From: a virus
Virus record (IMG/VR): IMGVR_UViG_3300021961_000275
Location: 1 to 36,601 of that record
Strand: one strand, 5' to 3'
DNA length: 36,601 nt
The notes below the pieces were generated by a model. That model did no database searches. It worked only from the letters and a program-made list of their open reading frames with translations, and was not told the DNA's origin. Shown one piece after another: positions 6,774 to 20,552 of the stretch (position 1 is the first letter of the stretch; each line of letters starts with the position of its first letter). The translations under genes were made by a program, and so were the position numbers.

Positions 6774-7178
6774 CTAGTTTACCAAGAAAAATTCCCGTTC
6801 ATAGTAATTTCTAACATCCGGAACCATACCTTCCATTGATATGGGCCAGTCTATATTGTCGAAAAGAAAATCATAGACCTCTGGATTTTCATCATATGTT
6901 TTAAAATAAGGATCATTTTGATGTAATAATTGTGGGTCTTTTAGAAGTTCCCAAAAATCTTCACCAAAATCTTTGCTAATCCAATAAGCATAACAGAAAG
7001 CAACAAAGTAACTTTTTGCTGGGTAAATCCACTCATCAATTCGTTCAAAAAAATGACGAAGAGCTTCTTCTTTAACATTATCCGTAATAACAATATCAAC
7101 TTGGTTCAAATCGTCAGAGTGTTCTGTATTTAAACGATGATATATTTCTTGTTTAATTTTCCATTCTCTAGTTTCCAT
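6774..7178 (-). CDS. Unknown acidic/aromatic protein (134 aa), last gene of the enzyme island
   Basis: I do not recognise this family. The chosen start is the ATG at 7178-7176 (METREWKIKQEIYHRLNTEH) because GGAG at 7188-7185 is six bases upstream; a longer reading from 7205 is open but lacks support. The protein is rich in Trp, Tyr, Phe, Asp and Glu (WIYPAKSYFVAFCYAYWISK, FGEDFWELLKD, DNIDWPISMEG) and appears mainly helical, soluble and without metal-site motifs. It overlaps the end of the upstream oxygenase gene by 11 bases, so the two are translationally coupled. It could be an accessory or substrate-recognition partner of that oxygenase. That is inference from coupling only. Confidence 0.65.
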   Translation of the reverse strand: METREWKIKQEIYHRLNTEHSDDLNQVDIVITDNVKEEALRHFFERIDEWIYPAKSYFVAFCYAYWISKDFGEDFWELLKDPQLLHQNDPYFKTYDENPEVYDFLFDNIDWPISMEGMVPDVRNYYEREFFLVN

Positions 7179-7632
7179 TATCATCTCCACAGAACATTGT
7201 AACATTTATACTAGTCCTAGGACTTGTTCCAGTATAGTGTAGAACCCTATGCATTGTATCAGATTCAAATACAATTAATTTCCCTGGTTCAAAATCAACT
7301 GTCTTAACACCATCTTCGACAAGTATCTGTAGTTCACCACCTTGGTTAACACTTCCGTCAATCCATAATATTCCAGCATGAGTGCCTGGCATTACATTAT
7401 GGTTGCCGCCTATACCTTTTTCATTGTGCCAATCAAATCCATTACCAACTCCTGTAAAAGTGGTTCTATTAAACCAGTTATTAGTTATGTTTACTTTGTG
7501 TCCTACAGTTTCCTCTATTAGTTGTGTAAAAGTATCCATATCATTTTCTAATGGGTTGTGAACATTATTACCATCAATAGTTTTTAATTTTTCTATTAAA
7601 GGATTGTTAATATCTACATTATAAACTTGCAT
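7168..7632 (-). CDS. Fe(II)/2-oxoglutarate-dependent oxygenase, HxE type (154 aa)
   Basis: The double-stranded beta-helix signature is clear: FDWHNEKG supplies His69 and Glu71 (HxE in place of the usual HxD), GGELQILVEDG follows, then MHRVLHYTG supplies distal His128, and SPRTSINVTMF gives Arg139, the likely 2-oxoglutarate carboxylate ligand. PGKLIVFES before the distal His is the usual turn. At 154 residues it is a minimal prolyl-4-hydroxylase-like fold. Such enzymes hydroxylate peptides, nucleobases or small molecules; the substrate here is unknown. The ATG at 7632 lies inside the end of the radical SAM gene ending at 7619, and its own 3' end overlaps the next small gene. Tight coupling to a radical SAM protein suggests both act on the same target. 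Confidence 0.82.
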   Translation of the reverse strand: MQVYNVDINNPLIEKLKTIDGNNVHNPLENDMDTFTQLIEETVGHKVNITNNWFNRTTFTGVGNGFDWHNEKGIGGNHNVMPGTHAGILWIDGSVNQGGELQILVEDGVKTVDFEPGKLIVFESDTMHRVLHYTGTSPRTSINVTMFCGDDNGN

Positions 7633-8515
7633 AATAATCTAATAATCCTTTATATCCGTTACAACTATTGTCTAAATCTTTAACGTATCTATAATGTTCT
7701 GTCAAACAATGTCCAAAGTGTCTACAGCTTCTACAAATTTGACTAATACTCGTTTTTTCTTTATTTGTCCAATCTATATATTCTTGCCAATTTTCGAGTT
7801 CCAGGAAGTATTCTCGGTCATTCAAATCAAACTCTAAAACACCATACTTACCATTAGGTGTTATGTAAATATGATCATCCGAGAAAGCATTATATTCACC
7901 ATTCAAACTTTCTATAATTTTTTGTTCATTTATAAAATCAAATTTTTTCTCAACATCACATTCCAACCATTTAATAACGAATTCTTCAAAGTCTTTGTGT
8001 GTCGTTTTGAAGTTATTGGCTTGATTTATAGAATAAGGTTTTATTTCAACAGACTCTATGGATCTACAAGAATTCAACATATTTACCATATAACTGACAG
8101 ACATATTCATAACCTCCGGTGAAGCTAAAATTAATACAGCTATAGGCACAGGAGACTGCATCATATTCATAAAAACTTTTTCATGTTTTTCTCTAGCTGC
8201 AAAGTCATAACTTACCGAAAGATAGAAATCATCTTCAAAAAATCCATCATGTAACATACTAAAATTTGTTATAATGTTTATCTTTTGTTTATAGTGTTTC
8301 CTAATAGTATCTCTTAAACCATAGAAATAATCTTTTTTTAAAGCACCAATTTCACCACCATATAAGTCGATGTGTTCAATGTTTGGTATATTTGATAAAA
8401 GTTTGTCTAATTTTTCGAAAGATATTTTTTTCTGGTCAGATAATTGTTGTTCGGTTAGATAACAAAAATCACATCTAAAATTACAATAGTACCAAGGATT
8501 TAAAGAAACGAACAT
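7619..8515 (-). CDS. Radical SAM protein with partial SPASM/twitch C-terminus (298 aa)
   Basis: The N-terminal CNFRCDFC gives the CX3CX2C cluster (Cys11, Cys15, Cys18) that binds the SAM-cleaving [4Fe-4S], and LYGGEIG (Gly53-Gly54-Glu55) is the SAM-binding GGE motif. Near the C-terminus Cys261, Cys264, Cys270 and Cys285 form a CX2CX5C...C set, shorter than a full SPASM set, so one auxiliary cluster is likely. The family generates a 5'-deoxyadenosyl radical to modify peptides or proteins in many RiPP pathways. The ATG is fused to the TAA of the upstream unknown-family gene (TAATG at 8515), and the downstream oxygenase overlaps its end. It is one of five radical SAM genes in the island. Substrate is inferred to be a protein or peptide, not proven. 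Confidence 0.88.
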   Translation of the reverse strand: MFVSLNPWYYCNFRCDFCYLTEQQLSDQKKISFEKLDKLLSNIPNIEHIDLYGGEIGALKKDYFYGLRDTIRKHYKQKINIITNFSMLHDGFFEDDFYLSVSYDFAAREKHEKVFMNMMQSPVPIAVLILASPEVMNMSVSYMVNMLNSCRSIESVEIKPYSINQANNFKTTHKDFEEFVIKWLECDVEKKFDFINEQKIIESLNGEYNAFSDDHIYITPNGKYGVLEFDLNDREYFLELENWQEYIDWTNKEKTSISQICRSCRHFGHCLTEHYRYVKDLDNSCNGYKGLLDYYASL

Positions 8516-9603
8516 TAAATGATATAACTTTCTAAAAATTTTTTATTTTTTTGATTTTCTAAAGTTGTTTGTATGAAATAATGATTTACGGTTGATAGGT
8601 CTATCGAGAAGAAAGATCCAGATGAGTGATCAAAAGTTGATTCGGCTTCAATTATTTTATAGAGCAAATCATCTGTGAAATCAAAAAAACAAGGTAAAAA
8701 ATCAAGTTTATTTGTATCAGACTTCATAAAAATATAATTGGCTTCTTCAACCCAAGAACTACCAGATATGACAGTAAATTCTTTAAAGGCTTGAATATCT
8801 TTTTCTGTAATATTTTCCAGTTGAATACTATCAACACCATTACCTATAGTTCTAAAAGGTTTTTTCCATATTTCTGATGTTGTAAACAGTTTAGTAAATT
8901 TCGATTCATCGTTTAATATTTCATAAAAATTTGAAAAATCATATTCTCTCGTCAAGTTTAATTTTTTTGTAAAGCCTTTTGTCAATAAATGAACTAGAAA
9001 AATTTCTTTTAATTCGAATAGATATTTAATCAAATCTCTCCTAATTAAATTTTTCATAGATTGTTTTAACTCTTCTTTAAAAGATCCATCATATAAAAAG
9101 GTGGTCATCAAATATTCTATACTAACACAAGATTTCAAATTGTTAAGATTTTCTTTGTAAGAATTTTTATAAATTGTTTTAAATATTTTTTCGTCTAGTG
9201 TATAATAATTCTTATTATCTTTTTTTTCTCCATAATTAAATCTTGAATTATTAAAAATAGTATCTCTAAACAAAAGAGATTTCATTAAAAGAAATATATT
9301 TTCTTCTTTAGGATTTTTAAATATCGATTTTAACCAACATGTCAACAGGAATAGATAATTTGTTTCATCAGCATAAATTATAATTTTTTCATTATAATTT
9401 TTTAAATGATTGAAAAAACCACTTAATGATTTATATTTTTCAAGTAATTCTTCTATACTTAAAAAACAATCTATAGTAGTATTTTTATTTTCTAATTCTT
9501 TGAATATGTACTTAACACCAACTGGAGAAATAAAAATTTTTTTTTGTTGCTCATCTATCAATTCATCCGTGTCTAGATATATTTTGTCAAATAAGTGAAT
9601 CAT
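8515..9603 (-). CDS. Unknown-family protein, copy A (362 aa), paralogue of the 16669-17901 gene
   Basis: I do not recognise the family. The protein starts MIHLFDKIYLDTDELID and is Lys/Phe/Ile/Leu-rich and mostly helical. Several blocks match the protein at 16669-17901 in order: MIHLF-K-YL at the start, IYADETNYLFLLTCW versus IHADLDSYMSLIMNY, SIEYLMTTFLYDGSFKEELK versus SIEYYISSYIYDGSKKEQLK, LTREYDFSNFYEIL versus LKEYNLDNAEEIF, and VNHYFIQ versus INVYLIQ near the end. It sits between two radical SAM genes, ten bases after one and sharing TAATG with the next. No cysteine clusters or oxygenase motifs are seen. A scaffold or leader-binding partner for the radical SAM enzymes is plausible but unproven. 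Confidence 0.75.
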   Translation of the reverse strand: MIHLFDKIYLDTDELIDEQQKKIFISPVGVKYIFKELENKNTTIDCFLSIEELLEKYKSLSGFFNHLKNYNEKIIIYADETNYLFLLTCWLKSIFKNPKEENIFLLMKSLLFRDTIFNNSRFNYGEKKDNKNYYTLDEKIFKTIYKNSYKENLNNLKSCVSIEYLMTTFLYDGSFKEELKQSMKNLIRRDLIKYLFELKEIFLVHLLTKGFTKKLNLTREYDFSNFYEILNDESKFTKLFTTSEIWKKPFRTIGNGVDSIQLENITEKDIQAFKEFTVISGSSWVEEANYIFMKSDTNKLDFLPCFFDFTDDLLYKIIEAESTFDHSSGSFFSIDLSTVNHYFIQTTLENQKNKKFLESYII

Positions 9604-9613
9604 ACTTTATGCC

Positions 9614-10687
9614 CTAATAATTATACTCTTTTATATATTCTGTTGGTTCTAAAATACCGGTCAAGCCATTGGCTTCGATGATTTTTGGTGCCAAATTTTT
9701 CATCATGTTACAATGTTGTTCAACTAGATTATAATCTTTCATATCTTTTATTGTTTTTCTACAACCATTACAAATCTCAAACATAGGACAAGAATAACAA
9801 GACATTTTTAATGATTGTAATTCTTCAACATTTCTAAGAGGAAATATTTTTTTACCAGACATCTCTTGTTTGAAATCTATATTAAAAATTTTATCATCAC
9901 CAAAAGAACCACAACTATAATAGTCACCATCAGGTTGCAAAGTTCTTATACCACCATCACAATTCCTAAACTGTGGGCAAGTAGTTTCCAAATTTTTCAA
10001 TCTTTTGGACATTTGTTTCGTGTTGAATTCCCATTCAGTGAGTCCTCTTTCCCATATATCAACATATGTTTTATAAATTTTAGCTAAAAGATAAGGTCTG
10101 CCCTCTTGACCCATAATAATATTTTTAAATTTTTTAGGAGGTCCGCTACTTACCGCATAATTCAATTTACACTCTACGTTCATTTTTTTAGCTAATTCAA
10201 CATTCTTTATAGCTAAATGTTCATTCTCATCAGTGATAACTGAAATAAAATCTGGTCTATATCCACAATGTTCAAGCATCGCATCAGACACTTTCCAAAA
10301 ATCTTCTTCAGTAAATTCAGATAAATCACCTTTTAATCTTCCTCCACCATATTGAAATGATGTACAAATACCCATTCGTGGATGATTGAATAAATCTTTC
10401 CATTTTTCTGGATTTTTATAGAATGGCCAAAGGTTTGAAGTAAATGATATTGATGCTGATGATTCAATGTCATCTAAATGTTTAATTATTTTCCAATAAT
10501 AGTCTGGATTAACCATTAATGGGTCACCACCATTTACAATTATTGTTCTTGTTTCGGGAAATCTTTCCAAAAATTCAAATATGAACCTTAGAGGTAACAA
10601 AGTGTTTTCTTTTTCAGATATTTTGGTGCTTGAACAAAATGTGCATTTAAAATTACAAAGTTCGGTGGGTTTGATGATTAAGTCCAT
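9614..10687 (-). CDS. Radical SAM/SPASM protein (357 aa)
   Basis: The start chosen is ATG at 10687-10685 (MDLIIKPTELCNFKCTFCSS), because the cluster motif then begins at residue 11 as usual and the ATG overlaps the TAA of the upstream oxygenase gene (TAATG). An upstream extension is open but runs through that gene. CNFKCTFC gives Cys11, Cys15 and Cys18; VNGGDP (about 52-56) is the SAM-binding GGD/E motif. The C-terminus is a full SPASM set: Cys237, Cys243, Cys259, then Cys297, Cys300, Cys306, Cys309 and Cys326, predicting two auxiliary Fe-S clusters. SPASM radical SAM enzymes are mainly peptide- and protein-modifying (anSME, sactisynthases, PqqE). Here an oxygenase precedes it and the unknown-family copy A follows ten bases later. 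The substrate is not known. Confidence 0.9.
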   Translation of the reverse strand: MDLIIKPTELCNFKCTFCSSTKISEKENTLLPLRFIFEFLERFPETRTIIVNGGDPLMVNPDYYWKIIKHLDDIESSASISFTSNLWPFYKNPEKWKDLFNHPRMGICTSFQYGGGRLKGDLSEFTEEDFWKVSDAMLEHCGYRPDFISVITDENEHLAIKNVELAKKMNVECKLNYAVSSGPPKKFKNIIMGQEGRPYLLAKIYKTYVDIWERGLTEWEFNTKQMSKRLKNLETTCPQFRNCDGGIRTLQPDGDYYSCGSFGDDKIFNIDFKQEMSGKKIFPLRNVEELQSLKMSCYSCPMFEICNGCRKTIKDMKDYNLVEQHCNMMKNLAPKIIEANGLTGILEPTEYIKEYNY

Positions 10688-11217
10688 TATAATCTTTCGC
10701 AATAAAATCCAAAATTGGCCACAATTCTGGTAAAGTCTTTTTTCATAGATTCTGCTGAATGTTCCCATTGTTTTTGTTGACTCACCATTACTATATCATA
10801 TTTTTTTGGATGAATAAATCCAGTAATTTCTTTAGAAAAAGAATCTCTAAAACTTATACCTCCACCAATATCTTTATTCGTATCATTAAAATATAAAAGA
10901 AAAAGTAAGTTACAACCTTGATCCAAATCATTATGGAAGTTATCAGCACCAATATCTATACCATTCCAAATAGCATTATAACCTATTTTATATTTTGGCC
11001 AAAACTGACTAACATATTTTTCAGATAAAAATATGTGCGTTTTCGACAACTGTTCTGTTATATCACTATTATTATTGCAACTTCTATAATATTTAGCGCC
11101 ATTATTTTGTTTTTCCCATTGCAATTTTGGTAATAAAGGTTCTAAAAATTGAAAACAGGTCTGATCATTAAAATGTGCAAAACCTTTGGTGAAAAAATCA
11201 ACCGTTTGGACTGACAT
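10687..11217 (-). CDS. Fe(II)/2-oxoglutarate-dependent oxygenase, HxD type (176 aa)
   Basis: NFHNDLDQG supplies the metal pair His95 and Asp97 (numbering from the chosen ATG), WEHSAES gives distal His153, and FTRIVANFGFY gives Arg164, the expected 2-oxoglutarate ligand. NAIWNGIDIGADN before the HxD parallels WDGVD in the two oxygenases at 13184-14183, so the three are related. The ATG at 11217 (MSVQTVDFF) is used; an in-frame ATG at 11223 and GTG at 11235 are alternatives and none has an obvious Shine-Dalgarno. The start overlaps the end of the 99-aa gene and the stop forms TAATG with the radical SAM gene. It probably hydroxylates a protein or peptide; the substrate is unknown. Confidence 0.82.
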   Translation of the reverse strand: MSVQTVDFFTKGFAHFNDQTCFQFLEPLLPKLQWEKQNNGAKYYRSCNNNSDITEQLSKTHIFLSEKYVSQFWPKYKIGYNAIWNGIDIGADNFHNDLDQGCNLLFLLYFNDTNKDIGGGISFRDSFSKEITGFIHPKKYDIVMVSQQKQWEHSAESMKKDFTRIVANFGFYCERL

Positions 11218-11497
11218 AACCATATTTGTATTCACAGTCTAAACTATATTCAGTTTCTTCAATATTATCGACACCTAATAACCCACACAATTGACGATTA
11301 CATTCTCTTATCTGAGCTTTAATGGTATTGGTATAAGGTTCCAAGTTTTCTATTTGTTTCATATAAATTTCATATTTTTCTGGTTCATCTTGGTAATCGT
11401 GTAGTTTTGTAATCCACAAATTGTATATTTCCGCACACAAATCACGTTCTCTGTGGAGTTGTTTTTTTTTCTCAAAAATTTCTTCAACCGTATTCAT
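11198..11497 (-). CDS. Unknown small coiled-coil protein (99 aa)
   Basis: Unrecognised. The sequence starts MNTVEEIFEKKKQLHRERDL and is helical and highly charged for about 75 residues, likely an antiparallel helical hairpin, with a C-terminal tail CGLLGVDNIEETEYSLDCEYKYGY. Four cysteines (two within CNRQLCG) are present but no metal motif is convincing. Its ATG lies 14 bases inside the end of the B12-type radical SAM gene and its end overlaps the next oxygenase, so translation is coupled on both sides. Small helical proteins coupled to radical SAM genes are sometimes recognition partners or additional substrates; which applies here cannot be told. Confidence 0.65.
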   Translation of the reverse strand: MNTVEEIFEKKKQLHRERDLCAEIYNLWITKLHDYQDEPEKYEIYMKQIENLEPYTNTIKAQIRECNRQLCGLLGVDNIEETEYSLDCEYKYGYVSPNG

Positions 11498-13187
11498 ACA
11501 TTGGTTCCTTCAACTCGGAAAATAATTCGTTTAAAATTATTTTTTTGTTTCTTTGTAAAAATTCCTCCACAGCATCATTTCTGAGTTTACCTTTTAATAT
11601 CTTTAAATTTTTTGGCTCGGTCTCAGGATTCAAAATATCTGCAGCTTCTTCACATAACTCTCTAAACTCAGGAAATTCACTCATCACATTAAAACAAGTT
11701 TTGCCGAAATAAGGTACCGAATGCTTATCTATAAACATCGGATAAAGATTTTGCAGTAGCCAGTTTCCACAAAGATTCATCATCCACATTTCAACAACAT
11801 CTTCTCTACTAAATGAATAACAACTTGCAATCGTTTTAAAATAATGTCTTTTCTTAACATAAAGACTTTGTAAGTTATCCACACCATCTTCATCGATAAT
11901 ATCCGTATAGACATCAACAAGTTCTATATTATATTTTTTTAAATATTCTGTTTTTGATAATTCTGAATCAGGTAAAAACATATAGTCGTGTCTAAAACTT
12001 GTCCATGCTTTAAAATTCCAAAGTATAGTCATTTCATCATAAAAGTCTTGTAAAGTAGAACCAGGCATAGCCATTATAAGTTCGATAGCTGGTACGGGAA
12101 AGCCTTGTTTGTGACATTTTTTATAAATGTGTTCACTCAATTTTATCTTATCTTCAAAACTCAAATCGATTCTATTGGCAACTTTCATAGCTTCATTACT
12201 GATGCTCTGTATACTAACAGTAGGTACCACACTAATATAAGAAGGTCCTTCATCAGCCTTTGCAACCTCTCTTTTGGTATTAACTGGACTATGCGTTTCC
12301 GGGCCAGAACCAACAACGTCAAACCACGCATCAATTAACTTAATTCTCCTATTCAAGTCTTTACTTTTCATTGTACTGATGTCGGTTAAATTAACTCTGT
12401 TATCCCACCCAAATTTAAATATCTCAACATCTCTATCGAAGAAAACACCGAAGTTTGCGTCAGTTAAATAGACATCCCTAAAACCAGCTTTCTTTAGAGC
12501 AAGAATATCTCTCTTAACAATATCTAAAGGTTTTTTATAAATTTTTGATTCTATACCTCCACCCCATTCACAGTAAACACATCCATACGGGCATCCTCTT
12601 GTGGTTTCAATTATGCAAAAAGGTTCAAGACTATTTTCTCTTGCGTATTCTCTAGTTTCTTTTAGAAAATCATAATGTTCTTCATAAACACTATAATCGG
12701 GCATAAATTGTGAACAAGTTTTACTACTTCTTAATTCCCAAGATATATCTGAGAAATTTGGTTTTCCTCCAGTTTCAATATAAGAATCAATCAATTCTTG
12801 TAAAAAAACTTCTCCAGGTTTTGTTGCTTGAGAAATAAAATCATAATACCATCTTTTTAATAAAAACGTTTGGTCGTTAGTTCCTATGTGTGGTCCACCC
12901 AAAACACATAAACATTCTTTATCTTTAGATTTTATTAATTTTGCTAGGTCATCACATATGTCGTAATTCCAAATGTAACTTGAAAATAAGTATATGTCTG
13001 CTCGACCCACTTCATCATATATTTCTTGAACAGAAGTATATTTGTCGTATTTGTAGGGTGCTGGTATCCACTCTACCTTATCGTTGTTTTTTCCAAATCT
13101 CTTATAATGAGATTGAAACATCAAATATGCGGCATTATTAGCTAAACACCAGTCGGCATGAGGAGGATTTATAAAAGCAACTTTCAT
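11484..13187 (-). CDS. B12-binding-domain-type radical SAM protein (567 aa)
   Basis: The N-terminal 140 residues start MKVAFINPPH and include IYLFSSYIWN, VLGGPHIG and PGEVFLQEL, the Rossmann-like pattern of B12-binding domains ahead of class-B radical SAM cores; the DxHxxG cobalt-ligating motif is absent, as in many members. The core has ETTRGCPYGCVYCEWGG with Cys199, Cys203 and Cys206, followed by DVYLTDANFG. A roughly 170-residue C-terminal region (FRHDYMFLPDSEL onward) is typical of long members. These enzymes perform methylations or other radical chemistry at unactivated carbons, often in natural-product pathways. ATGA overlaps the upstream oxygenase stop, and the 99-aa gene starts inside its end. 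It is the largest enzyme of the island. Substrate is unknown. Confidence 0.88.
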   Translation of the reverse strand: MKVAFINPPHADWCLANNAAYLMFQSHYKRFGKNNDKVEWIPAPYKYDKYTSVQEIYDEVGRADIYLFSSYIWNYDICDDLAKLIKSKDKECLCVLGGPHIGTNDQTFLLKRWYYDFISQATKPGEVFLQELIDSYIETGGKPNFSDISWELRSSKTCSQFMPDYSVYEEHYDFLKETREYARENSLEPFCIIETTRGCPYGCVYCEWGGGIESKIYKKPLDIVKRDILALKKAGFRDVYLTDANFGVFFDRDVEIFKFGWDNRVNLTDISTMKSKDLNRRIKLIDAWFDVVGSGPETHSPVNTKREVAKADEGPSYISVVPTVSIQSISNEAMKVANRIDLSFEDKIKLSEHIYKKCHKQGFPVPAIELIMAMPGSTLQDFYDEMTILWNFKAWTSFRHDYMFLPDSELSKTEYLKKYNIELVDVYTDIIDEDGVDNLQSLYVKKRHYFKTIASCYSFSREDVVEMWMMNLCGNWLLQNLYPMFIDKHSVPYFGKTCFNVMSEFPEFRELCEEAADILNPETEPKNLKILKGKLRNDAVEEFLQRNKKIILNELFSELKEPMYEYG

Positions 13188-13705
13188 ATGGTATAATCAA
13201 AACTTACAACTCGCCTTTGAATTTTTGTGCTTTCAGCTCGGTGCCAAAATCCTCTAGCATTAGATACACAGAATAAAGAACCAGAGAGTGGTTGAAAGGA
13301 TTTTTCTTCAAAAATACCGTTTTCTTTCCATTTGAATTGGATGGCACCTCCAGTTTCCTTGGCCGTATTGTCATAATAAAATAAAAAGAATATGTCATAT
13401 TGCTCAAACATATCCGTATGCCATCCTTGATTGTCCCTATCAACTCCATCCCATACAGTATATTTCACAAATTTGGAATCATCACCCCAATGTGGGTCAA
13501 CATATTTCGTTTTTATATATTGAGAAGCCACCTTTAAACTATAATTTAACTTTTCTGGTAAATCAATTTCATCGTTATCCCTACTTCTTTCTTCGGTATT
13601 CAGAAGTTTATAATTGTCTAGTGATAAAATGTCCAATAAATCTGGTTCCGACAATTCATAAAAACCATATTGTTCAATTTGTTGTTTGATATTTAAATTC
13701 GACAT
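13184..13705 (-). CDS. Fe(II)/2-oxoglutarate-dependent oxygenase, HxD type (173 aa)
   Basis: VWDGVDRDNQGWHTDMF supplies His96 and Asp98, GGAIQFKWKENG is the central strand pair, FWHRAEST gives distal His155, and QRRVVSFDY provides Arg164 or Arg165 for 2-oxoglutarate. The fold is complete. It is closely similar in layout to the immediately upstream oxygenase (13674-14183), with the same WDGVD, W-H-x-D, H-R-A-S/E-S and R-R pattern at the same residue numbers, so the two are probably a tandem duplication followed by divergence. The ATG at 13705 overlaps the upstream gene by 32 bases; the TGA overlaps the ATG of the B12-type radical SAM gene. Peptide or protein hydroxylation is the likely chemistry; the target is inferred. 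Confidence 0.85.
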   Translation of the reverse strand: MSNLNIKQQIEQYGFYELSEPDLLDILSLDNYKLLNTEERSRDNDEIDLPEKLNYSLKVASQYIKTKYVDPHWGDDSKFVKYTVWDGVDRDNQGWHTDMFEQYDIFFLFYYDNTAKETGGAIQFKWKENGIFEEKSFQPLSGSLFCVSNARGFWHRAESTKIQRRVVSFDYTI

Positions 13706-14183
13706 TTATAATCCTACGTCTTGTTCTACTTCTAGATGCTCTATGTTTATATTTGTCCGATTGGTTTAACCAAACCAATGTTCCGGATGTAGGATGAATA
13801 GTGAATTCTTCTTTTTCATTTTTAAATTCAAGATATCCATCATGCAGACAATCATCCAAATAATATAAAAATGAACAATCTTGTCCGTATCCATTATCAA
13901 CGTGCCATTCTAATGATTTTTTGTCAACACCATCCCATAAATTGGCAGAGACAATGTTTGCTGGCCTGAATGGAGACACATATTCAGTATAAACATAATT
14001 GGCAAAAAAGTTTAAAAAATCTTTTTGGGAGTTTGTATAAGTAATCTTAAAAGGTGAATCACTTACATTAATAATCGGTTCATATTGAATTTCATCAAAT
14101 TTTTTTAAAATCAATTCATCTTTCATTACAGAAACACCATTAATAATATAATTTGTTAAAAACTCATTCTTTTGTTGTATCAT
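13674..14183 (-). CDS. Fe(II)/2-oxoglutarate-dependent oxygenase, HxD type (169 aa)
   Basis: LWDGVDKKSLEWHVDNGYG gives His94 and Asp96 counted from the ATG at 14183, YKHRASRS gives distal His147, and TRRRIINVEF supplies the Arg ligand. The neighbouring 13184-13705 protein has the same motif spacing, so they are paralogues. Start choice is uncertain: ATG at 14183 (MIQQKNEF) keeps an N-terminal segment that aligns with the paralogue, a TTG at 14189 is two codons earlier, and an ATG at 14126 would trim 19 residues. It overlaps the end of the 247-aa unknown gene, placing it third in the unit that begins with the CHxS protein. The nearest plausible substrate is that CHxS protein; this is inference. 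Confidence 0.83.
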   Translation of the reverse strand: MIQQKNEFLTNYIINGVSVMKDELILKKFDEIQYEPIINVSDSPFKITYTNSQKDFLNFFANYVYTEYVSPFRPANIVSANLWDGVDKKSLEWHVDNGYGQDCSFLYYLDDCLHDGYLEFKNEKEEFTIHPTSGTLVWLNQSDKYKHRASRSRTRRRIINVEFKYQTTN

Positions 14184-14907
14184 AACCAAAATATTCTTCT
14201 ATTTGTTGTTTAGACAAAAGGTTTTCAGCCAAATTGAAAGTTATAACGAACAACATATTCTTTTCATTAGCCCAAAAGTCAAATAAATTTTTACCTTTAT
14301 AAATGTTTTTCTTGTAAAAATTTTCGTAAAATTTAAAATTTTCTTGATTTGAATTCAACAATAGAGAGATGAATTGTCCATCTTTTAAGATCGATATGAA
14401 ATTTATTCCAGAATAATCTTCATCGTCCACTACAGGAAATTTTTCAATATAATCTTTAAAAACTTTCCCATTTTTAACTGTATAGACGTTATACAAACTC
14501 AAACTTTGAATTAATGAAACCCATTTTTCTAAAATTTGTTTATTACTTTCTATAAATTTATCAATATTTTTATTTCTATCGAAATAATAATTTGGTTGGT
14601 CAACTTTAGTTTTTTTAGTTTTTGTATTATTGATGAAATATGATAAAATTCCAAACACATCATTTTCAATTGAAGGTAAACTAACTAAAAGTGTTGAATT
14701 CAAATACTCTTTTAAAAATTCTTCATACTCTTTTTGATCGGTGAAAAATACATCACTAGGTATTTCCAAATTACTTAAATATGTTAAAAGTTTTTTTCCT
14801 TTGAGCTCACTTTTATCATAGTTAATATTAAAAAAAACGTCTTTATCTGTAAAATGTTTTTTTAAATCATCCATCGACAAAGGAGCAGTTACTTCAATAA
14901 CATTCAT
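14164..14907 (-). CDS. Unknown protein directly downstream of the CHxS protein (247 aa)
   Basis: Not recognised with confidence. It begins MNVIEVTAPLSMDDLKKHFT and is Lys/Phe/Tyr/Asn-rich, mainly soluble, with short predicted helices and no Cys cluster or HxD site. The N-terminal segment (DVFFNINYDKSELKGKKLLT) and its position beside a CHxS/His-Xaa-Ser-like protein invite comparison with HxsD, the small accessory protein of the HXS system, but it is much longer and I cannot confirm homology by eye. A strong AGGAG (14921-14917), placed in the last codons of the CHxS gene nine bases ahead of the ATG, couples the two. The best guess is a dedicated partner, for example a chaperone or leader-recognition protein, for the CHxS product. 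Confidence 0.7.
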   Translation of the reverse strand: MNVIEVTAPLSMDDLKKHFTDKDVFFNINYDKSELKGKKLLTYLSNLEIPSDVFFTDQKEYEEFLKEYLNSTLLVSLPSIENDVFGILSYFINNTKTKKTKVDQPNYYFDRNKNIDKFIESNKQILEKWVSLIQSLSLYNVYTVKNGKVFKDYIEKFPVVDDEDYSGINFISILKDGQFISLLLNSNQENFKFYENFYKKNIYKGKNLFDFWANEKNMLFVITFNLAENLLSKQQIEEYFGYDTTKE

Positions 14908-14912
14908 AAAAT

Positions 14913-15542
14913 TTATCTCCTACCTCTACTTTTATGACAACTCTGATGACAAGAACTGTGACAAACACTATAACCAGTAATTTGTAATGTGTTGATAGAA
15001 GTGTTCAAAACGGCTACTAGTTGTTCTTTATACTTATTTAATTTTGATGCTGAAATTGTTGCACCTTTAACTGGTTTATCTGGCACAAGAGTAGCTGGTA
15101 AACCAGTTGCTGCTGGAGTGAGTCTAGAAGTAGTATTTAGATGTGTAACCCCAGATTTGGTTTCTGATGATTCCTTTGCGGTAAACCTAGGGACACCGGT
15201 GTGGTAATAAGGGGGATAATTATCACCCGAATAATTATTTGTTGCTGTTATAGTTCTTTTAACACTTACTGTTTGTATATTTGTATAATAATAAGCCTGT
15301 TCCGTCAAAGCATCTACGATAGTGGAAGCTTTGATCTGTTCAGTGGCAAGACCATCTAAATCTGTATTTAATTGTCCCACTGAAGCTGTTCCTTCAGTAT
15401 AAAGGGCGTTGTCAATTTCCGGAAAATGTTTATTAGATTGATGGTATATAATTGTTGGTATAGTAGCTCGAAGATATGCTACAAAAATATCCATAATGTC
15501 GTCACTCTCAATTTCATCATCTTGCGTAAAATTAGTTGCCAT
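14913..15542 (-). CDS. Candidate modified substrate: protein with C-terminal CHxS repeats (209 aa)
   Basis: The C-terminus reads CHSSCHQSCHKSRGRR: three consecutive Cys-His-x-Ser tetrads followed by a basic tail. These are the protein's only cysteines, all within the last 16 residues. The first 190 residues look like a conventional structural protein: an acidic start (DDEIESDDIMD), a helical stretch (IFVAYLRATIPTIIYHQSNK), then Thr/Ser/Tyr-rich beta-type sequence (TITATNNYSGDNYPPYYHTG) and a final helix (ASKLNKYKEQLVAVLNTSIN). The tetrads resemble the His-Xaa-Ser repeats of HxsA, known to co-occur with radical SAM maturases HxsB/HxsC. The gene sits mid-island, after a SPASM radical SAM gene and before an unknown gene and two oxygenases. 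It has its own TATAAATA late motif and an AAGGGAG site (15559-15553). A modified minor virion protein, or alternatively an unmodified metal-binding tail tip, is inferred. Confidence 0.8.
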   Translation of the reverse strand: MATNFTQDDEIESDDIMDIFVAYLRATIPTIIYHQSNKHFPEIDNALYTEGTASVGQLNTDLDGLATEQIKASTIVDALTEQAYYYTNIQTVSVKRTITATNNYSGDNYPPYYHTGVPRFTAKESSETKSGVTHLNTTSRLTPAATGLPATLVPDKPVKGATISASKLNKYKEQLVAVLNTSINTLQITGYSVCHSSCHQSCHKSRGRR

Positions 15543-15546
15543 TTTT

Positions 15547-16599
15547 CTAAGACTCCCTTATAATTATAATCTTTCTTTTACTATTTATACCACTCAAATG
15601 AGACATTAAACTCTTAGGTGCAGCACAAACATCATTTTGCCACTCCAACTGATGGCAATCACCACCACAATAAGAGAATACCTCACAATTATAACATCTA
15701 CTGTCTCCCATTTTTTCACAAGTAATATTATTTATTCTTGTGGGATTATTAATTAATGCTTTCACATCATCATCAATATTACCAAAATATTCTTCTGGAG
15801 CAGAATTTGGACAACCAGAAATTGTTCCGTCAGCATTTATCGTAAAAAGTTTTTCTTCACAGTCCCTACAAAAAGTTCCAGCTTTTGTAAATCCAGATTC
15901 AAACTTCATATAAACATTTTCTAAAAACTCATTTTTAAACCAAGTTCTCGCATTATATTTTTCACTCTGTTTGTGCATTTCCAAAAACCATTTATCCTGT
16001 TCTTCATTGGTAGGAAAAATTTCTGGAAACAGATTTGCATTACCATTTTTAGTTAATCTTTCTAAACTAATTTCATCAAAACCCATTTCTTTTACAAACA
16101 ATAATAATTTTATGGGTTCAATTTCCAACGTATCTTTTGTAACACTCACAAAAAGTTTTAATTTGATACCCTCAGATATCAATCTTCTTACATTATTTTC
16201 CCAAAGACTAATTTGTTTCTGATTCTCAAATCTTATTTTGGGATCCCAGCTTGTTGCTATTGAACCAGAAAGTGGCCCTTTCATAAAATCTATTATCTCA
16301 TCGGTAAGTTTAAAAACTAAATTTGTTGTTACGCCCCATGAAACACTATTCCACAAACTATTACAGGAGTCATAAATTTTTTGCATCTCCTCAACAGGTG
16401 CTAAAAAAGGTTCTCCTCCATGAAACTCAAAATGTATATGATTCAAATCTGGTTTAACATCTCGGAATCTATGAATCCAATCAATTATTTTATCAGTATT
16501 CCAAAATATTTTTTTACCATTTTTTCCGTTGGTAAAACAATGCTTACAATTCAAATTGCAAGTCTCAGTGGTTTTCAAGTAAATATTAACATCTTGCAT
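15547..16599 (-). CDS. Radical SAM/SPASM protein, anSME-like layout (350 aa)
   Basis: The start is taken at ATG 16599-16597, placing CNLNCKHC at Cys14, Cys18 and Cys21; the open extension to 16680 is a hydrophobic artefact reading through the divergent promoter region. FHGGEPFLAP (Gly61-Gly62-Glu63-Pro64) is the SAM site. The C-terminus has a textbook SPASM: Cys244, Cys247, Cys263, Cys294, then Cys302, Cys305, Cys311, Cys315 and Cys325 (CX2CX5CX3CX9C), so two auxiliary clusters are expected. This is the layout of sulfatase-maturase-like and RiPP peptide-modifying enzymes. Its stop is four bases before the ATG of the CHxS protein, making it the prime candidate for that protein's maturase. The end of the gene also contains the CHxS promoter. 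The exact reaction cannot be predicted. Confidence 0.9.
   Translation of the reverse strand: MQDVNIYLKTTETCNLNCKHCFTNGKNGKKIFWNTDKIIDWIHRFRDVKPDLNHIHFEFHGGEPFLAPVEEMQKIYDSCNSLWNSVSWGVTTNLVFKLTDEIIDFMKGPLSGSIATSWDPKIRFENQKQISLWENNVRRLISEGIKLKLFVSVTKDTLEIEPIKLLLFVKEMGFDEISLERLTKNGNANLFPEIFPTNEEQDKWFLEMHKQSEKYNARTWFKNEFLENVYMKFESGFTKAGTFCRDCEEKLFTINADGTISGCPNSAPEEYFGNIDDDVKALINNPTRINNITCEKMGDSRCYNCEVFSYCGGDCHQLEWQNDVCAAPKSLMSHLSGINSKRKIIIIRES
15582..15589 (-). promoter_or_regulatory. Perfect T4 late promoter motif TATAAATA for the CHxS gene
   Basis: The minus strand at 15589-15582 reads TATAAATA, the full T4 late -10 consensus, inside the last codons of the SPASM radical SAM gene. The CHxS start codon is 39 bases downstream and an AAGGGAG ribosome site lies between. 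It would give a separate, probably stronger, late transcript for the candidate substrate. Confidence 0.7.
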
Positions 16600-16628
16600 G
16601 ATTTGTATGATTTGTATGAACGACAACG

Positions 16629-16636
16629 TATAAATA
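16629..16636 (+). promoter_or_regulatory. Perfect T4 late promoter motif TATAAATA for the plus-strand pair
   Basis: The plus strand at 16629-16636 reads TATAAATA followed by G, in the 69-base gap between the divergent genes at 16599 and 16669. The ATG at 16669 is 32 bases downstream with AGGAG at about 16656-16660. It is well placed to drive the only two plus-strand genes of the window. Confidence 0.75.
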
Positions 16637-16668
16637 GACAATAACAATATTATATAGGAGATTACAAG

Positions 16669-17901
16669 ATGATTATTCATCTGTTTAAAAAAGTATACCT
16701 AAATTTGGACTGGGATATTAGTTTGGAAGAAGACAGAATTGTCGTTTCAACAAATCAAGGTTATGGATTAAGTAACGCATTGCTTGATTATGATTATTCT
16801 TATCCAAAAAAACTTGTTGCTTATGGACCAAGTATTGAATATCTTATCGGTGAAAATACTGAAAAAACTGAAGATGAGAGTGTTTACTTTGAAGAAAAGA
16901 TAACACAAATAGGTTTACCAAAGGAAAAATTTGCTTCGGATTATATCGATTTTTTTACAAAAGTATATGAACATTCCGAACAGACGGGAAAACCATTAAC
17001 AATTCATGCTGACTTAGATTCCTATATGTCGTTGATCATGAATTACTACAAAATAATTTTTCCAAATTTAGATTTCAAGTCCTTATCAAGAATATTGAAA
17101 AGTTGTTATTATAGAACAACTTTCATAAAACAATTAAACACTTATACCAAGAAAAGCACCTTTACAGAACAAAAATATTTGGGATATTTTTACGCAAATA
17201 TGTTGGAAAGAATGTCGGAGTTTGAAAAAGAATACGACTTAATTTCCTTCGATTCAAAACAGAAAGAATTAGAAGAATTTTACGATAAAATAAAAGAAAA
17301 TTTGAGTATAGAATACTATATTTCTTCTTACATCTATGATGGTTCAAAAAAAGAACAATTGAAAAAAATTGTGATGTTGATGATTTATAGGCATAGTGAA
17401 GAGATATTAGAAGAACATGTCATGCACTTTCTTACCGCATTTTTGAGAAAACCATTCCAAAGAAAAATGGGATTGAAAGAATATAATTTAGATAACGCCG
17501 AAGAAATTTTTACCGACCCATTAGTTGAAAAATTCTTAAAGACGAGTGTTTGGAGATTTAGTGAAGAATTTGAAAGAATAAATTTTTCCAATTACACAAA
17601 AGAAGATTTGGACGAAATTAAAGCCACTTTAGAAAAAATTAATGACTGTTTTTATGGTCTAACCGAAGAATCTGACCTTGTTGATTTACTGAGATTTAAT
17701 TACTCATATTACCTATTGGACAATAAAATTTCTGATGATGAACTTCAGTCTATTATTAATAAAGAATCTGAAACGGATAACGAAATGTCTATGTGGACCG
17801 CAGAAGATCAAAATACCATTAATGTATATTTGATACAAGAATTTTTTGACATCAAAAATCAAAGTAAAGTGGATTCGTTAAAGCCTTTCCGTTTAAGGTA
17901 A
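16669..17901 (+). CDS. Unknown-family protein, copy B (410 aa), paralogue of the 8515-9603 gene
   Basis: Unrecognised family. It starts MIIHLFKKVYLNLDWDISLE after a good AGGAG site. Blocks aligning with copy A include the MIIHLFKKVYL start, LTIHADLDSYMSLIMNYYK, SIEYYISSYIYDGSKKEQLK, FLRKPFQRKMGLKEYNL, NYTKEDLDEIKA and NTINVYLIQEFF. It is longer by a roughly 48-residue excess, mostly in the first third. It is Glu/Lys/Tyr-rich, probably helical and soluble, with a single cysteine near residue 145 and another in DCFYG, so no Fe-S cluster is likely. It is the first gene of a two-gene plus-strand unit with an HxH oxygenase 13 bases downstream. Two paralogues beside different enzymes suggest a dedicated partner role, one per enzyme set; this is inference. 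Confidence 0.75.
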   Translation: MIIHLFKKVYLNLDWDISLEEDRIVVSTNQGYGLSNALLDYDYSYPKKLVAYGPSIEYLIGENTEKTEDESVYFEEKITQIGLPKEKFASDYIDFFTKVYEHSEQTGKPLTIHADLDSYMSLIMNYYKIIFPNLDFKSLSRILKSCYYRTTFIKQLNTYTKKSTFTEQKYLGYFYANMLERMSEFEKEYDLISFDSKQKELEEFYDKIKENLSIEYYISSYIYDGSKKEQLKKIVMLMIYRHSEEILEEHVMHFLTAFLRKPFQRKMGLKEYNLDNAEEIFTDPLVEKFLKTSVWRFSEEFERINFSNYTKEDLDEIKATLEKINDCFYGLTEESDLVDLLRFNYSYYLLDNKISDDELQSIINKESETDNEMSMWTAEDQNTINVYLIQEFFDIKNQSKVDSLKPFRLR

Positions 17902-17914
17902 TAAAGGAATAAAA

Positions 17915-18529
17915 ATGATTAAAAATATTTTTCCAGTTAATATTGTCGTTAAAGATTACGATTTGTCCGAAGAATTTAATATAGAATTAAAAAAAAGTGT
18001 TGAAACAATTTTTCAAAAACGCTTATTGGATTCTGGACTAACTAGAGATGAATTAGGTGATACTGAATTTCCTCTTTTTACGGAAGAAAACAAAAAAGAA
18101 TTTCCTGTTTTGAACAAAATGTTGGAAATTATGACTGAAGGATTCGTAGAATTGGCAGAATCTTATAATAATAATGAATTAGATAAAAATGATATTCTTT
18201 CATCTGTGCAGAGCAATATTGGCAAACTTCCTTTTATGCAAAAAGGTACTTACAAAAAAACTCATAACCATACAGGCGCTTCAGCTTTTGCCATTTTTTA
18301 TTTAAATGATATTGATAATGATAAACACGGCGGCGAGCTGATTTTAAAAGACCCAGCATTTCATTCGAATCTGGGATTTCACCCTCCAGAAGAACACGGC
18401 ATAGAAACTAAAAAGAATAGGTTGATTGTTGCACCAGGTTACATCTGGCATGAAGTGTCACCTTATTTGGGTGATGAAGAGAGATTGTCCATTGTTATGA
18501 ACTTAGATTTAAAAGTCAACTTACAGTAG
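17915..18529 (+). CDS. Fe(II)/2-oxoglutarate-dependent oxygenase-like protein, HxH type (204 aa)
   Basis: KKTHNHTGASAFAIFYLND supplies His117 and His119 in an HxH arrangement with the YL-D strand of the 2OG-FeII_Oxy_5 type (PF13759-like); GGELILKDP follows, then APGYIWHEVSPYLG gives distal His179 and EERLSIVMNLDLK gives Arg190 for 2-oxoglutarate. This subgroup is common in marine T4-like phages but its substrates are largely unknown. The ATG has AAAGGA seven bases upstream and follows copy B by 13 bases, so the two form one plus-strand unit under the TATAAATA at 16629. Its 3' end overlaps the tail of the minus-strand cupin gene by 14 bases. An HxH metal site may use a different third ligand; activity is inferred. 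Confidence 0.78.
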   Translation: MIKNIFPVNIVVKDYDLSEEFNIELKKSVETIFQKRLLDSGLTRDELGDTEFPLFTEENKKEFPVLNKMLEIMTEGFVELAESYNNNELDKNDILSSVQSNIGKLPFMQKGTYKKTHNHTGASAFAIFYLNDIDNDKHGGELILKDPAFHSNLGFHPPEEHGIETKKNRLIVAPGYIWHEVSPYLGDEERLSIVMNLDLKVNLQ

Positions 18530-18986
18530 AGTAAAATTTTTCCAAACCAAAACTAAACATTAACGATTCAGTATTATTGATGGCTCTGTGCGCCTGTCCT
18601 TTTGGTATGAAAAATTCTTGGTTTTGTTCTATGGTATAAATTTTTCCAAGTGTTTCTATTTGTTTTTGGCCTTCTATGACATATAGTAAAACATCTTCAT
18701 TATCTACATGTTCGGGAAAACTATGTGAATTTTCATATGAACGGAAAACGTGGCAAGTCACAAAACCTTTATGTTTAAATCTTTTCTTTATGTCCAAACA
18801 TATCGAATTTATTTCTTCACCATAATATTCCATATGTTCCAACTTTATAGTTTTTCCATAATAGGAATGTAACTGACCAACGTTAGACAAGTAAATTTGC
18901 CTACCTTGGTTATCTATGATACTAATTAACTGTTTATCATAAACCAAATCCGTATTAACGAATGTGTCAAACTCATCATAATTCAT
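18516..18986 (-). CDS. JmjC-like cupin (156 aa)
   Basis: The C-terminal half is a cupin: SFPEHVDNEDVLLYVIEGQK gives His93 and Asp95 with the H-x-D-x-x-D-V-x-L-x-x-x-x-G spacing of JmjC/Cupin_4 ribosomal-oxygenase-type hydroxylases, and IPKGQAHRAINNTE gives the distal His133. The first 80 residues (MNYDEFDTFVNTDLVYDKQL onward) are not recognisable and are short compared with full JmjC hydroxylases. It may be a minimal protein hydroxylase or a non-enzymatic metal-binding cupin. It follows an HxH oxygenase by eight bases on the same strand and meets the plus-strand oxygenase gene tail to tail with a 14-base overlap. No Shine-Dalgarno is evident before the ATG. Confidence 0.7.
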   Translation of the reverse strand: MNYDEFDTFVNTDLVYDKQLISIIDNQGRQIYLSNVGQLHSYYGKTIKLEHMEYYGEEINSICLDIKKRFKHKGFVTCHVFRSYENSHSFPEHVDNEDVLLYVIEGQKQIETLGKIYTIEQNQEFFIPKGQAHRAINNTESLMFSFGLEKFYSTVS

Positions 18987-18994
18987 ATTTAATA

Positions 18995-19540
18995 TTATTT
19001 TTCTACAATGAAAACATCAAATGGCATTATTATCCTAGGAAAATCAGAATATGATTGCATGGTTTCATGCCACAAATAACTAGGAAATATAACTATATCA
19101 CCCACTTTAACCTCCAATACTTCGACAGAGAATTCTTTTTGAGATATTACATCACTATTATAACCTCTGTTTGCATTGTTTCGTGGGTCATACATGAGTA
19201 AATCACCATCAGTGGCTGAAACATAAAATACACCACTCAAAATACTACAAGCGTGATTATGGTATATGATATTTTTATGATCACTAGCATGAATTTTTAT
19301 ACTGAATTCATCTTTATATTCCCAAACCTCACTTAAATATTCTTTAACCTTTTCGTTGATATAGTCTACAACTTCTTCAAGTTCCTTTTCGTTACTCAAA
19401 TTTATGTTGGTGTAATTTGTTGGGAAATTATGCTCTTTGAATGAAGACACCAAAAAATTAAAACAATTTTGAATCGTATTTGTATTAGAAATATTATCTA
19501 TCAGTATCCTAGTTGGCCAAAGACTTTTTATCATCGACAT
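18995..19540 (-). CDS. 2OG-Fe(II) oxygenase of the PF13759 (2OG-FeII_Oxy_5) type (181 aa)
   Basis: The protein begins MSMIKSLWPTRILIDNISN, the short N-terminal pattern (S-L-W-P-T) usual in this family. IIYHNHACSILSGVFYV supplies His94 and His96 and the family's SGVFYV strand; LLMYDPRNNANRG follows; VKVGDIVIFPSYLWHETMQSY gives distal His158, and FPRIIMPFDVF gives Arg169. The family is frequent in T4-like cyanophages and pelagiphages; its biological substrate is not established. The ATG at 19540 has AGGAAG about ten bases upstream and lies inside the end of the radical SAM gene ending at 19509, so the two are co-translated. A peptide or protein target shared with that enzyme is inferred. Confidence 0.88.
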   Translation of the reverse strand: MSMIKSLWPTRILIDNISNTNTIQNCFNFLVSSFKEHNFPTNYTNINLSNEKELEEVVDYINEKVKEYLSEVWEYKDEFSIKIHASDHKNIIYHNHACSILSGVFYVSATDGDLLMYDPRNNANRGYNSDVISQKEFSVEVLEVKVGDIVIFPSYLWHETMQSYSDFPRIIMPFDVFIVEK

Positions 19541-20552
19541 ATTTAAAAACTTCCTTATATAAACAAGTGTTCATATCCTCTTCTATAAATTTAAAATCAT
19601 GTTTTATGAAGCAAGTAAAAGAACACTTTTGATAATATTCACAAGAAAAACAATTGTATTTTTCGATAAAATTCTGGATAATTTTTGGTGAACCCACTTC
19701 GTCAGATTTTCTATCAGCCAAAAATACAGAACCAGAACACCCTTCCGGTATAAAATTATTTTTCAATACAGTAAAATTGTTGCCTCTTGTGCAAGTCATT
19801 TTGTTTTGTTTCTCTTTACCAACAAAAGATGCAACATTCAAAACGTTAGGATACTTGTCAACTAACAATTTATAAAACTCAAAGGTGTTTTTTTCAGATG
19901 GCATCTGAAACTTATTAGTTTCAGTTTTTCCAGCAGGCAAAAAAGAATCAAAATCAATAACACAATTTTGATAGATATGATCAAAAAAATCATCACCTCT
20001 CATCAACGATTGTATATTTTGTTTAGTCAAAACAACATTGACTGTTTTAATTTTATCTTTAAATATTTGAAAGTTGTTTTTAAATACGTTCAGAGTTTCG
20101 CTGTTAAACCTACCAGCCATGTCATAAGAACTGGAAATATTTAAATTGTTTTTCTCCAAAAAGTTAAATATTTTTTCCGTCTGTGTGAAAATCAAATTAG
20201 TAACAAAATTAAAAATTACTTTCTTATCCTTATCGACCTTTTCTATAACTTCATCAATAAATTTTTGATAAATGTCTAGATAACCCTTTTCTATCCAATA
20301 ATCTTGAAATAATTCTCCACCCATGGTATGAATGTAAAACTCTTTAGACCTTCGATTATTATTAATAAAGTCAACAACAAGAGGAACCTTTTTCATTATT
20401 TCTTCTTCAGTTGATCCGGTCATGTCATCGTGTTCTTGTGGGCAAAAAGCACAAGACAAATTACAATGGTCAAATAAAATCAAAACAATTTCACTGTGGT
20501 CTACAACCTTAGAATTAATTATATTATAAAAAGAAATTGGTTGTTCAATCAT
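19509..20552 (-). CDS. Radical SAM/SPASM protein (347 aa), first gene of the enzyme island
   Basis: FDHCNLSCAFCPQE gives Cys30, Cys34 and Cys37; HTMGGELFQDYW (Gly78-Gly79-Glu80) is the SAM-binding motif. The SPASM set is Cys254, Cys272, then Cys301, Cys304, Cys310, Cys314 and Cys330 (CX2CX5CX3C...C), consistent with auxiliary Fe-S clusters. The N-terminal 28 residues ahead of the cluster motif (MIEQPISFYNIINSKVVDHS) are longer than in the other radical SAM genes here and fold into the core. No clear Shine-Dalgarno or late motif lies in the 29-base gap after fibre 1, so read-through from fibre 1 is likely. An HxH oxygenase overlaps its 3' end. The target is probably a protein or peptide; reaction type is unknown. 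Confidence 0.9.
   Translation of the reverse strand: MIEQPISFYNIINSKVVDHSEIVLILFDHCNLSCAFCPQEHDDMTGSTEEEIMKKVPLVVDFINNNRRSKEFYIHTMGGELFQDYWIEKGYLDIYQKFIDEVIEKVDKDKKVIFNFVTNLIFTQTEKIFNFLEKNNLNISSSYDMAGRFNSETLNVFKNNFQIFKDKIKTVNVVLTKQNIQSLMRGDDFFDHIYQNCVIDFDSFLPAGKTETNKFQMPSEKNTFEFYKLLVDKYPNVLNVASFVGKEKQNKMTCTRGNNFTVLKNNFIPEGCSGSVFLADRKSDEVGSPKIIQNFIEKYNCFSCEYYQKCSFTCFIKHDFKFIEEDMNTCLYKEVFKYVDDKKSLAN

Follow-up and report, generated by a model that had tools for sequence, protein, structure and literature searches.

Introduction

Radical SAM and 2OG genes of large phages are usually filed under auxiliary metabolism or left unexplained. Several described maturation systems bear a likeness to the phage locus analysed here. 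The triceptide (3-CyFE) enzymes MscB, HaaB, YhhB, OscB and XncB are SPASM proteins that join an aromatic residue to the β-carbon of residue i+2 in short repeats; the aromatic residue can be His, the partners are Ser, Asn, Asp, Ala or Arg, and known bonds include those from His C2 to the β-carbon of Ala or Arg and from Phe to the β-carbon of Ser (PMC11002830). The dynobactin/darobactin maturases DynA and DarE form another group, and dynobactin contains a His-Tyr crosslink across two positions (PMC11002830). In the HXS family (HxsA-D), which was defined by bioinformatics and whose chemistry is only putative (PMC9062424), His-x-Ser repeats adjoin radical SAM genes. The ranthipeptide/sactipeptide maturases, such as PapB, combine a SPASM enzyme with Cys-containing repeats. 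QhpD and the anaerobic sulfatase maturases (anSME) are radical SAM/SPASM enzymes that act on a functional protein and not on a peptide product.

The locus that we compare with these systems is located in the window, by which we mean the whole stretch of 36,601 nucleotides of IMG/VR virus record IMGVR_UViG_3300021961_000275. It encodes, amid an island of radical SAM and oxygenase genes, a protein with a C-terminal repeat of Cys-His-x-Ser (CHxS) tetrads. A search of the openly accessible literature (without bioRxiv) for the motif and for radical SAM maturation in phages returned no prior description.

Results

The CHxS Protein and the Surrounding Island

The features of the island are collected in Table 1. 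According to the ORF translation, the 209-aa CHxS protein ends in ...SVCHSSCHQSCHKSRGRR directly before the stop codon (C-terminal string VCHSSCHQSCHKSRGRR). Its only Cys residues, 194, 198 and 202, are all located within the tail; the sequence-only reading, which had described a protein that ends in three CHxS tetrads and has no other cysteine, was exact in this respect. The CHxS ORF begins 5 nt past the stop codon of the ORF of the radical SAM/SPASM protein rSAM-A, for which alignment suggests ATG 16599 as the true start, and the conserved phrog_20767 ORF begins 6 nt after the CHxS ORF.

Table 1. Features of the CHxS island, with positions in the window.
Feature	Position	Strand	Remarks
T4-type late promoter box TATAAATA	15589-15582	-	ca. 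40 nt before the CHxS ATG, within the 3′ end of rSAM-A
CHxS-tail protein, candidate substrate and virion protein	14913..15542	-	ATG start, 209 aa
16-residue tail CHSSCHQSCHKSRGRR of the CHxS protein	14916..14963	-	residues 194-209
rSAM-A, radical SAM/SPASM	15547..16680	-	phrog_1802, 1.6e-67
phrog_20767 protein, obligate partner	14164..14907	-	37/37 loci, same 7 phage records
Cupin/JmjC_2-like, candidate Fe(II)/2OG hydroxylase	18516..18986	-	PF08007, 6.8e-7, above cut-off
rSAM-E, second of the obligate radical SAMs	19509..20552	-	36/37 loci, same 7 records
rSAM-C, third radical SAM, SPASM domain	9614..10768	-	same 7 records, 59-65% identity
rSAM-D, fourth of the obligate radical SAMs	7619..8515	-	same 7 records
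B12-binding radical SAM, accessory	11484..13187	-	PF04055; KedN5-like, 3.4e-21; 22/37 loci
2OG-Fe(II) oxygenase-like, accessory	13184..13705	-	
2OG-Fe(II) oxygenase, accessory	13674..14189	-	PF13640, above cut-off
2OG-Fe(II) oxygenase-like, accessory	10687..11235	-	
2OG-Fe(II) oxygenase, accessory	17915..18529	+	phrog_81
2OG-Fe(II) oxygenase, accessory	18995..19540	-	phrog_81
fam6	8515..9603	-	conserved in the island: 35/37 loci; 4/7 phage records (tblastn)
Second fam6 member, diverged	16669..17901	+	

The CX3CX2C motif and the full SPASM cysteine set are invariant in 13 diverse rSAM-A proteins, and rSAM-A scores 34.1 bits against the TIGR04085 SPASM domain model (cut-off 27). The HxD...H triad of the cupin (H93, D95, H133), which corresponds to a JmjC-type metal triad, is present in 84/84 sequences. 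The fam6 proteins had no Pfam and no informative PHROG match. Genes for the B12-binding radical SAM and the 2OG oxygenases are frequent, not universal, among 37 related loci. The set comprises four radical SAM enzymes and several oxygenases, some of which may act on other proteins.

Altogether, the window contains six 2OG-Fe(II) oxygenase-like genes, including one at 7168-7632; several of them match phrog_274 (“DNA endonuclease V”), a PHROG label that looks wrong. A 110-aa protein encoded at 6399-6731 (-) has up to 81% identity in related loci, an unusually high conservation here. In the island of phage SURPRISE13 (L002:18394-19571), two neighbouring genes annotated as dihydrofolate reductase are located between radical SAM genes.

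Searches of the PDB with AF2 models of the CHxS protein of the window (pLDDT 77.5, pTM 0.72) and of the phrog_20767 protein (pLDDT 83.4) returned no match, and the fold therefore gives no clue to role. The BFVD hits of the CHxS model were phage proteins that either had no name or were CHxS proteins from another phage. Since the predicted structures matched by the model include gp170 of phage Atu_ph07 and a 178-aa protein of the length found in phage DT01, at least some CHxS bodies have a common fold. Partial matches to the CHxS fold, with declining confidence, were also recorded in BFVD for three proteins of 504-660 aa from Myoviridae sp. ctijX18 (A0A8S5USJ7, A0A8S5USJ8 and A0A8S5USV2).

Comparison with Described Maturation Systems

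The NCBIfam models nearest to rSAM-A are those of DynA, PapB, sulfatase maturase and YhhB, and all of them score far below cut-off. The best match, DynA (7.1e-16), reaches 58 bits against a cut-off of 450, and its substrate and ring pattern are unrelated. QhpD gives 37.2 against 453 bits and the sulfatase maturase 43.3 against 349, and the targets of these two are enzymes without a tandem tail. Unlike PapB, rSAM-A has no N-terminal recognition domain, its CX3CX2C motif starting ca. 14 residues from the probable start of the protein.

The likeness to triceptide systems lies in the substrate: the H-x-[S/N/A] spacing is i to i+2, and the aromatic-x-(N/D/S/R/A) motif of triceptide substrates has its counterpart in the H-x-[S/N/A/Q/D] of every standard tetrad. 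However, rSAM-A falls below the family models (YhhB, 36.7 vs 445 bits; FxsB and AmcB, far under cut-off), the substrate is a phage protein of 130-310 aa with an unprocessed C-terminal repeat and an invariant Cys before each His, and the phage set adds the cupin, the phrog_20767 protein and further radical SAMs.

HXS had been invoked in the sequence-only reading as an established precedent. This part of the reading has to be given up, since HXS chemistry is only putative and our tests do not place the CHxS system in that family. No NCBIfam model, that of HxsA included, matched the CHxS protein; rSAM-A scored 33.3 bits with the HxsB model (cut-off 370), rSAM-C matched HxsC weakly (28.3 vs 267.9 bits), and there was no match to HxsD among the 10 proteins scanned against NCBIfam. 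A classical RiPP cluster was also considered and rejected: the substrate is a 130-310-aa protein, and neither protease nor transporter is found among the conserved families. By the tests run, the system would appear to work in the manner of SPASM-based RiPP or protein maturation, without being a member of the HXS, named triceptide or sulfatase maturase families.

Conserved Tail and Divergent Body

Neither a tblastn search of phages with the CHxS protein nor a related-locus search with this protein alone retrieved a relative, the tail being short and the body evolving too rapidly for such searches. Relatives were reached instead through rSAM-A and through a DNA pattern for CHxSCHxSCHxxRxRR. The rSAM-A search retrieved seven phage records: SURPRISE13, FLC6 and FLC8, which infect Burkholderia, Atu_ph07 of Agrobacterium (two records), Phosso of Sinorhizobium and DT01 of Pseudomonas. 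In each of them, the product of the ORF after rSAM-A has the C-terminus CHxSCHxSCHx[S/A]R[G/S]RR.

The DNA pattern retrieved at least 120 stretches from IMG/VR; among the matches listed, the motif is exactly 16 aa from the ORF end in 118 of 119 in-frame loci. In 257 Gb of cellular genomes, 19 stretches matched, 12 of them C-terminal and all of these on MAG contigs; none of the remaining seven is C-terminal. A chance origin of the tail is ruled out by this C-terminal placement in the listed IMG/VR matches and in the cellular genomes.

The three C-H pairs and R-x-R-R are invariant in 176 distinct relatives, with residue 4 of the tetrad mostly Ser; these relatives were found partly by the tail pattern, so the invariance of C, H and R is in part selected. 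The same positions are likewise invariant among 103 distinct relatives that were anchored on rSAM and have standard ends. A check proposed earlier, that the tail should be conserved while the body diverges, gave a clear result: in the 176 relatives, partly pattern-selected as they are, median identity is 81% for tails and 26% for bodies (22% for shuffled bodies). Bodies are sorted by BLAST into nine groups, tail codons vary freely with both Ser codon families in use, and 129 of the 176 proteins have no Cys beyond the tail. As to the tetrad itself, its Cys/His part stood as first read; a strict Ser at residue 4 did not, since in the unbiased relatives Ser is followed by Asn, Ala, Gln and Asp.

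The Tail Co-Occurs with the Island Enzymes

A search anchored on rSAM-A, in which the tail is not selected for, provides an unbiased converse test. A CHxS protein was found downstream of rSAM-A, normally as the next ORF, in 75 of 80 loci; in the other five, at most 294 nt of contig are left, and the count for spanning loci is therefore 75/75. A second scan with diverged rSAM-A seeds found a CHxS protein in 77/77 spanning loci, including two that were negative at first scoring and have Gln at residue 4. The two sets overlap and represent ca. 25 rSAM-A lineages below 70% identity. A third scan yielded one pair of contigs with CHYSCFTSSCHFSRGRR.

In a marine group, twin CHxS genes for proteins of ca. 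130 aa are found, with rSAM-A elsewhere on the contig, mostly at a distance of ca. 11-12 kb and in the opposite orientation. Since rSAM-A is present there in spite of the distance, the linkage is more than neighbourhood. Thirty-three records initially had no flanking rSAM-A; in 24 of them, the gene was found elsewhere on the contig, and the rest comprise a single false match of the pattern and contigs that stop short of the expected rSAM-A place.

Loci with ca. 10 kb on both sides contain the cupin, CHxS and phrog_20767 genes in 37 of 37 cases, rSAM-E in 36 and fam6 in 35. Seven families (CHxS, rSAM-A, cupin, phrog_20767, rSAM-C, rSAM-D and rSAM-E) occur in the identical 7 of 50,697 phage records, which come from three or more unrelated backgrounds: Chiangmaivirus, Polybotosvirus together with Phosso, and Pseudomonas phage DT01. 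Thus, CHxS tails co-occur with the island enzymes in every set in which the earlier question of co-occurrence could be put, with no clear exception. CHxS-tail homologues were also searched for in phages without the enzymes and none was found; contigs without rSAM-A end before its expected place. Conserved T4-like synteny as the sole cause was ruled out, as the cassette lies amid unrelated structural genes and the twin-type genes are unlinked.

Variant Tails Remain beside rSAM-A

A scan with a four-tetrad pattern returned 74 stretches, mostly low-complexity noise, of which seven were informative. Tails with at least five tetrads were found in L123, L275 and L295, and tails lacking RxRR in L234 and L245. 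In the expanded arrays of L275:7959-8660 (-) and L123:7832-8512 (+), NVPV/NVV spacers are seen. Three proteins continue past the repeat: that of L238 with a Peptidase_S74 chaperone (PF13884, 1.5e-11), that of L285:1-1239 (-) with a Hint domain (PF05203, 2e-15) and that of L241:1645-2865 (-) with a Hint-like sequence, the latter judged by eye only. Every variant adjoins rSAM-A, and therefore the repeat unit, not RxRR, tracks the enzyme.

S74 is a self-cleaving chaperone of trimeric tail fibres, and its position in L238 suggests that the CHxS tail becomes the C-terminal tip once S74 is processed. It is possible that autocleavage at the Hint/intein-like domains of L285 and L241 likewise exposes the tail. 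The likeness to S74-chaperone tail fibres is confined to L238; in contrast, most CHxS proteins have no chaperone, and the PDB fold search with the CHxS model was negative.

These data bear on the possibility that the tail is an unmodified Cys/His metal-binding tip and that the enzymes target another virion protein, the island moving as a block. Cys-His repeats are natural metal ligands, and the island has several enzymes for which another target is conceivable, both in favour of this explanation. However, CHxS adjoins rSAM-A in all spanning non-twin loci, the pair is kept where the genes are far apart, and variants with extra tetrads or altered ends stay beside the enzyme; moreover, no conserved repeat was noticed in the other island proteins. 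We consider an unmodified tip improbable.

Proposed Chemistry of the Tail

Tail conservation and strict co-occurrence both support the central proposal of the sequence-only reading, that the CHxS tail is the substrate of the island; judging from sequence comparison, the tail is very probably acted on by the island enzymes. A crosslink seems somewhat more probable than another modification. In the mechanism that we propose, rSAM-A, encoded just upstream, would act on every tetrad and produce a small ring in each, in which the β-carbon of residue 4 is bonded to the imidazole of His (or to the sulfur of Cys). A hydroxyl or further groups would come from the JmjC-like cupin together with the remaining radical SAMs, and the terminal R-x-R-R is probably a recognition element or a cap.

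In standard tails, C and H are invariant and residue 4 varies (S, N, A, Q or D). The Ser hydroxyl is therefore dispensable, the feature common to these residues being a β-carbon; Ser chemistry such as lanthionine formation or phosphorylation is ruled out by the same substitutions. The i to i+2 spacing from His, together with the tolerance for S/N/A/Q/D, matches the known three-residue cyclophane enzymes. Conservation does not tell whether His or Cys is the crosslink donor, because the two are equally invariant, and a bond specifically from His to residue 4 is put forward tentatively, with rather less than even confidence.

Alternatively, rSAM-A could modify the tail through Cys, forming a thioether to the α- or β-carbon of residue 4 or a neighbour, as in sactipeptides and ranthipeptides, and leaving His free. 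Such a bond would account for three invariant Cys residues in proteins where Cys is otherwise rare, and the ranthipeptide maturase PapB is the second-best NCBIfam model of rSAM-A (1.6e-14). PapB is nevertheless far under cut-off (53.9 vs 340 bits), and His, equally invariant, would have no part in the bond; we hold the thioether to be unlikely, if less so than the unmodified tip.

The tail could also be oxidised without being crosslinked, for example by conversion of Cys to formylglycine as carried out by anaerobic sulfatase maturases. The last tetrad with the following Arg (C-x-x-S-R) does resemble the sulfatase C-x-P-S-R site, anSME 4k37 aligns with rSAM-A over the full length, and rSAM-A has a TIGR03942 match of 2.4e-11, which for the rSAM-A of DT01 is the best model. 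Yet the TIGR03942 scores are 43-51 bits against a cut-off of 349, the tail contains no Pro, and Arg does not follow each tetrad. In addition, D277 of anSME, which follows C276, is presumably the catalytic Asp used as base, and the residue after the aligned SPASM Cys of rSAM-A is mostly Pro (Ala or Cys in some), not Asp. Formylglycine formation is, in our judgement, very improbable.

Late Promoter and Virion Role

The sequence-only reading assigned the CHxS gene a late promoter of its own, and this is borne out by the exact box upstream of the gene and by enrichment of such boxes before CHxS genes of relatives. The window contains two exact late boxes, against 5.8 expected by chance, each just upstream of an ORF; the second, at 16629-16636 (+), precedes the diverged fam6 ORF by ca. 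35 nt. Among relatives, a late box is found at most 90 nt upstream of 15/78 CHxS genes and 0/61 rSAM-A genes, with a background of 0.7%. Its presence before CHxS but not rSAM-A genes fits a substrate needed in larger amount than the enzyme.

The island sits behind genes of baseplate and tail-fibre type. In Atu_ph07, virion proteins detected by ESI-MS/MS cluster in CDS 31-76, 170-215 and 284-329 (PMC6102473). In the same numbering, gp215 is the major capsid protein and gp170 is the CHxS protein, which makes gp170 the edge gene of a virion cluster defined by mass spectrometry; from this boundary we infer that gp170 is in the Atu_ph07 virion. The late box, the structural genes upstream and the Atu_ph07 cluster make it likely that the CHxS protein is a virion protein. 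It would be a particle protein that a tailed phage expresses late, with a modified tail forming a hardened or metal-binding tip; this tip would probably be displayed in the baseplate/tail-fibre region of the virion.

The same evidence weighs against the view that the protein is not a virion part but a precursor, whose C-terminal peptide would be modified, released and secreted to act in a RiPP-like way in superinfection exclusion or killing. While a repeat core C-terminal to a longer, leader-like body would suit such a precursor, and cleavage is implied for the members with an S74 or Hint domain, cleavage at these domains frees what follows the tail and leaves the tail on the body. No protease or exporter is found among the conserved neighbours, and the late promoter, the structural genes nearby and the virion cluster of Atu_ph07 all indicate a particle protein. 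We regard a secreted peptide as the most improbable of the explanations considered.

With reasonable confidence, we read the CHxS protein as a late virion protein of a tailed phage whose C-H-x-[S/N/A] repeat tail is the dedicated substrate of the neighbouring enzymes and becomes a ringed tip. The broader view appears evenly balanced to us: seven or more genes, for four radical SAM enzymes, the JmjC-like oxygenase, a helper and the substrate, would make up a mobile pathway that several unrelated phage lineages share and that is present either whole or not at all, and it would serve solely to build a multiply crosslinked, hydroxylated Cys-His tip on a virion protein. We know of no description of a modified tip on a phage particle protein. 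If our reading is correct, a ribosomally made tip that is post-translationally hardened or metal-loaded would be a class of viral structure new to knowledge, RiPP-like chemistry would be part of phage particles, with a new enzyme family and a substrate code (CHxS), and peptide crosslinking would gain CHxS as a short tag that can be genetically encoded. The radical SAM and 2OG genes of the island gain a concrete, dedicated candidate target: the C-terminal repeat of what is probably a virion protein.

Two observations on the distribution of the cassette may be added. The 151-kb contig IMGVR_UViG_3300025138_000014 (L062, L076 and L445) combines a single-copy cassette with twin CHxS genes and has two copies of rSAM-A. 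The cassettes of L133, L139, L141 and L144 are on contigs of up to 382 kb binned with Bdellovibrio-like and Bacteriovorax-like MAGs; these may represent jumbo phages infecting predatory bacteria, or the binning may be wrong.
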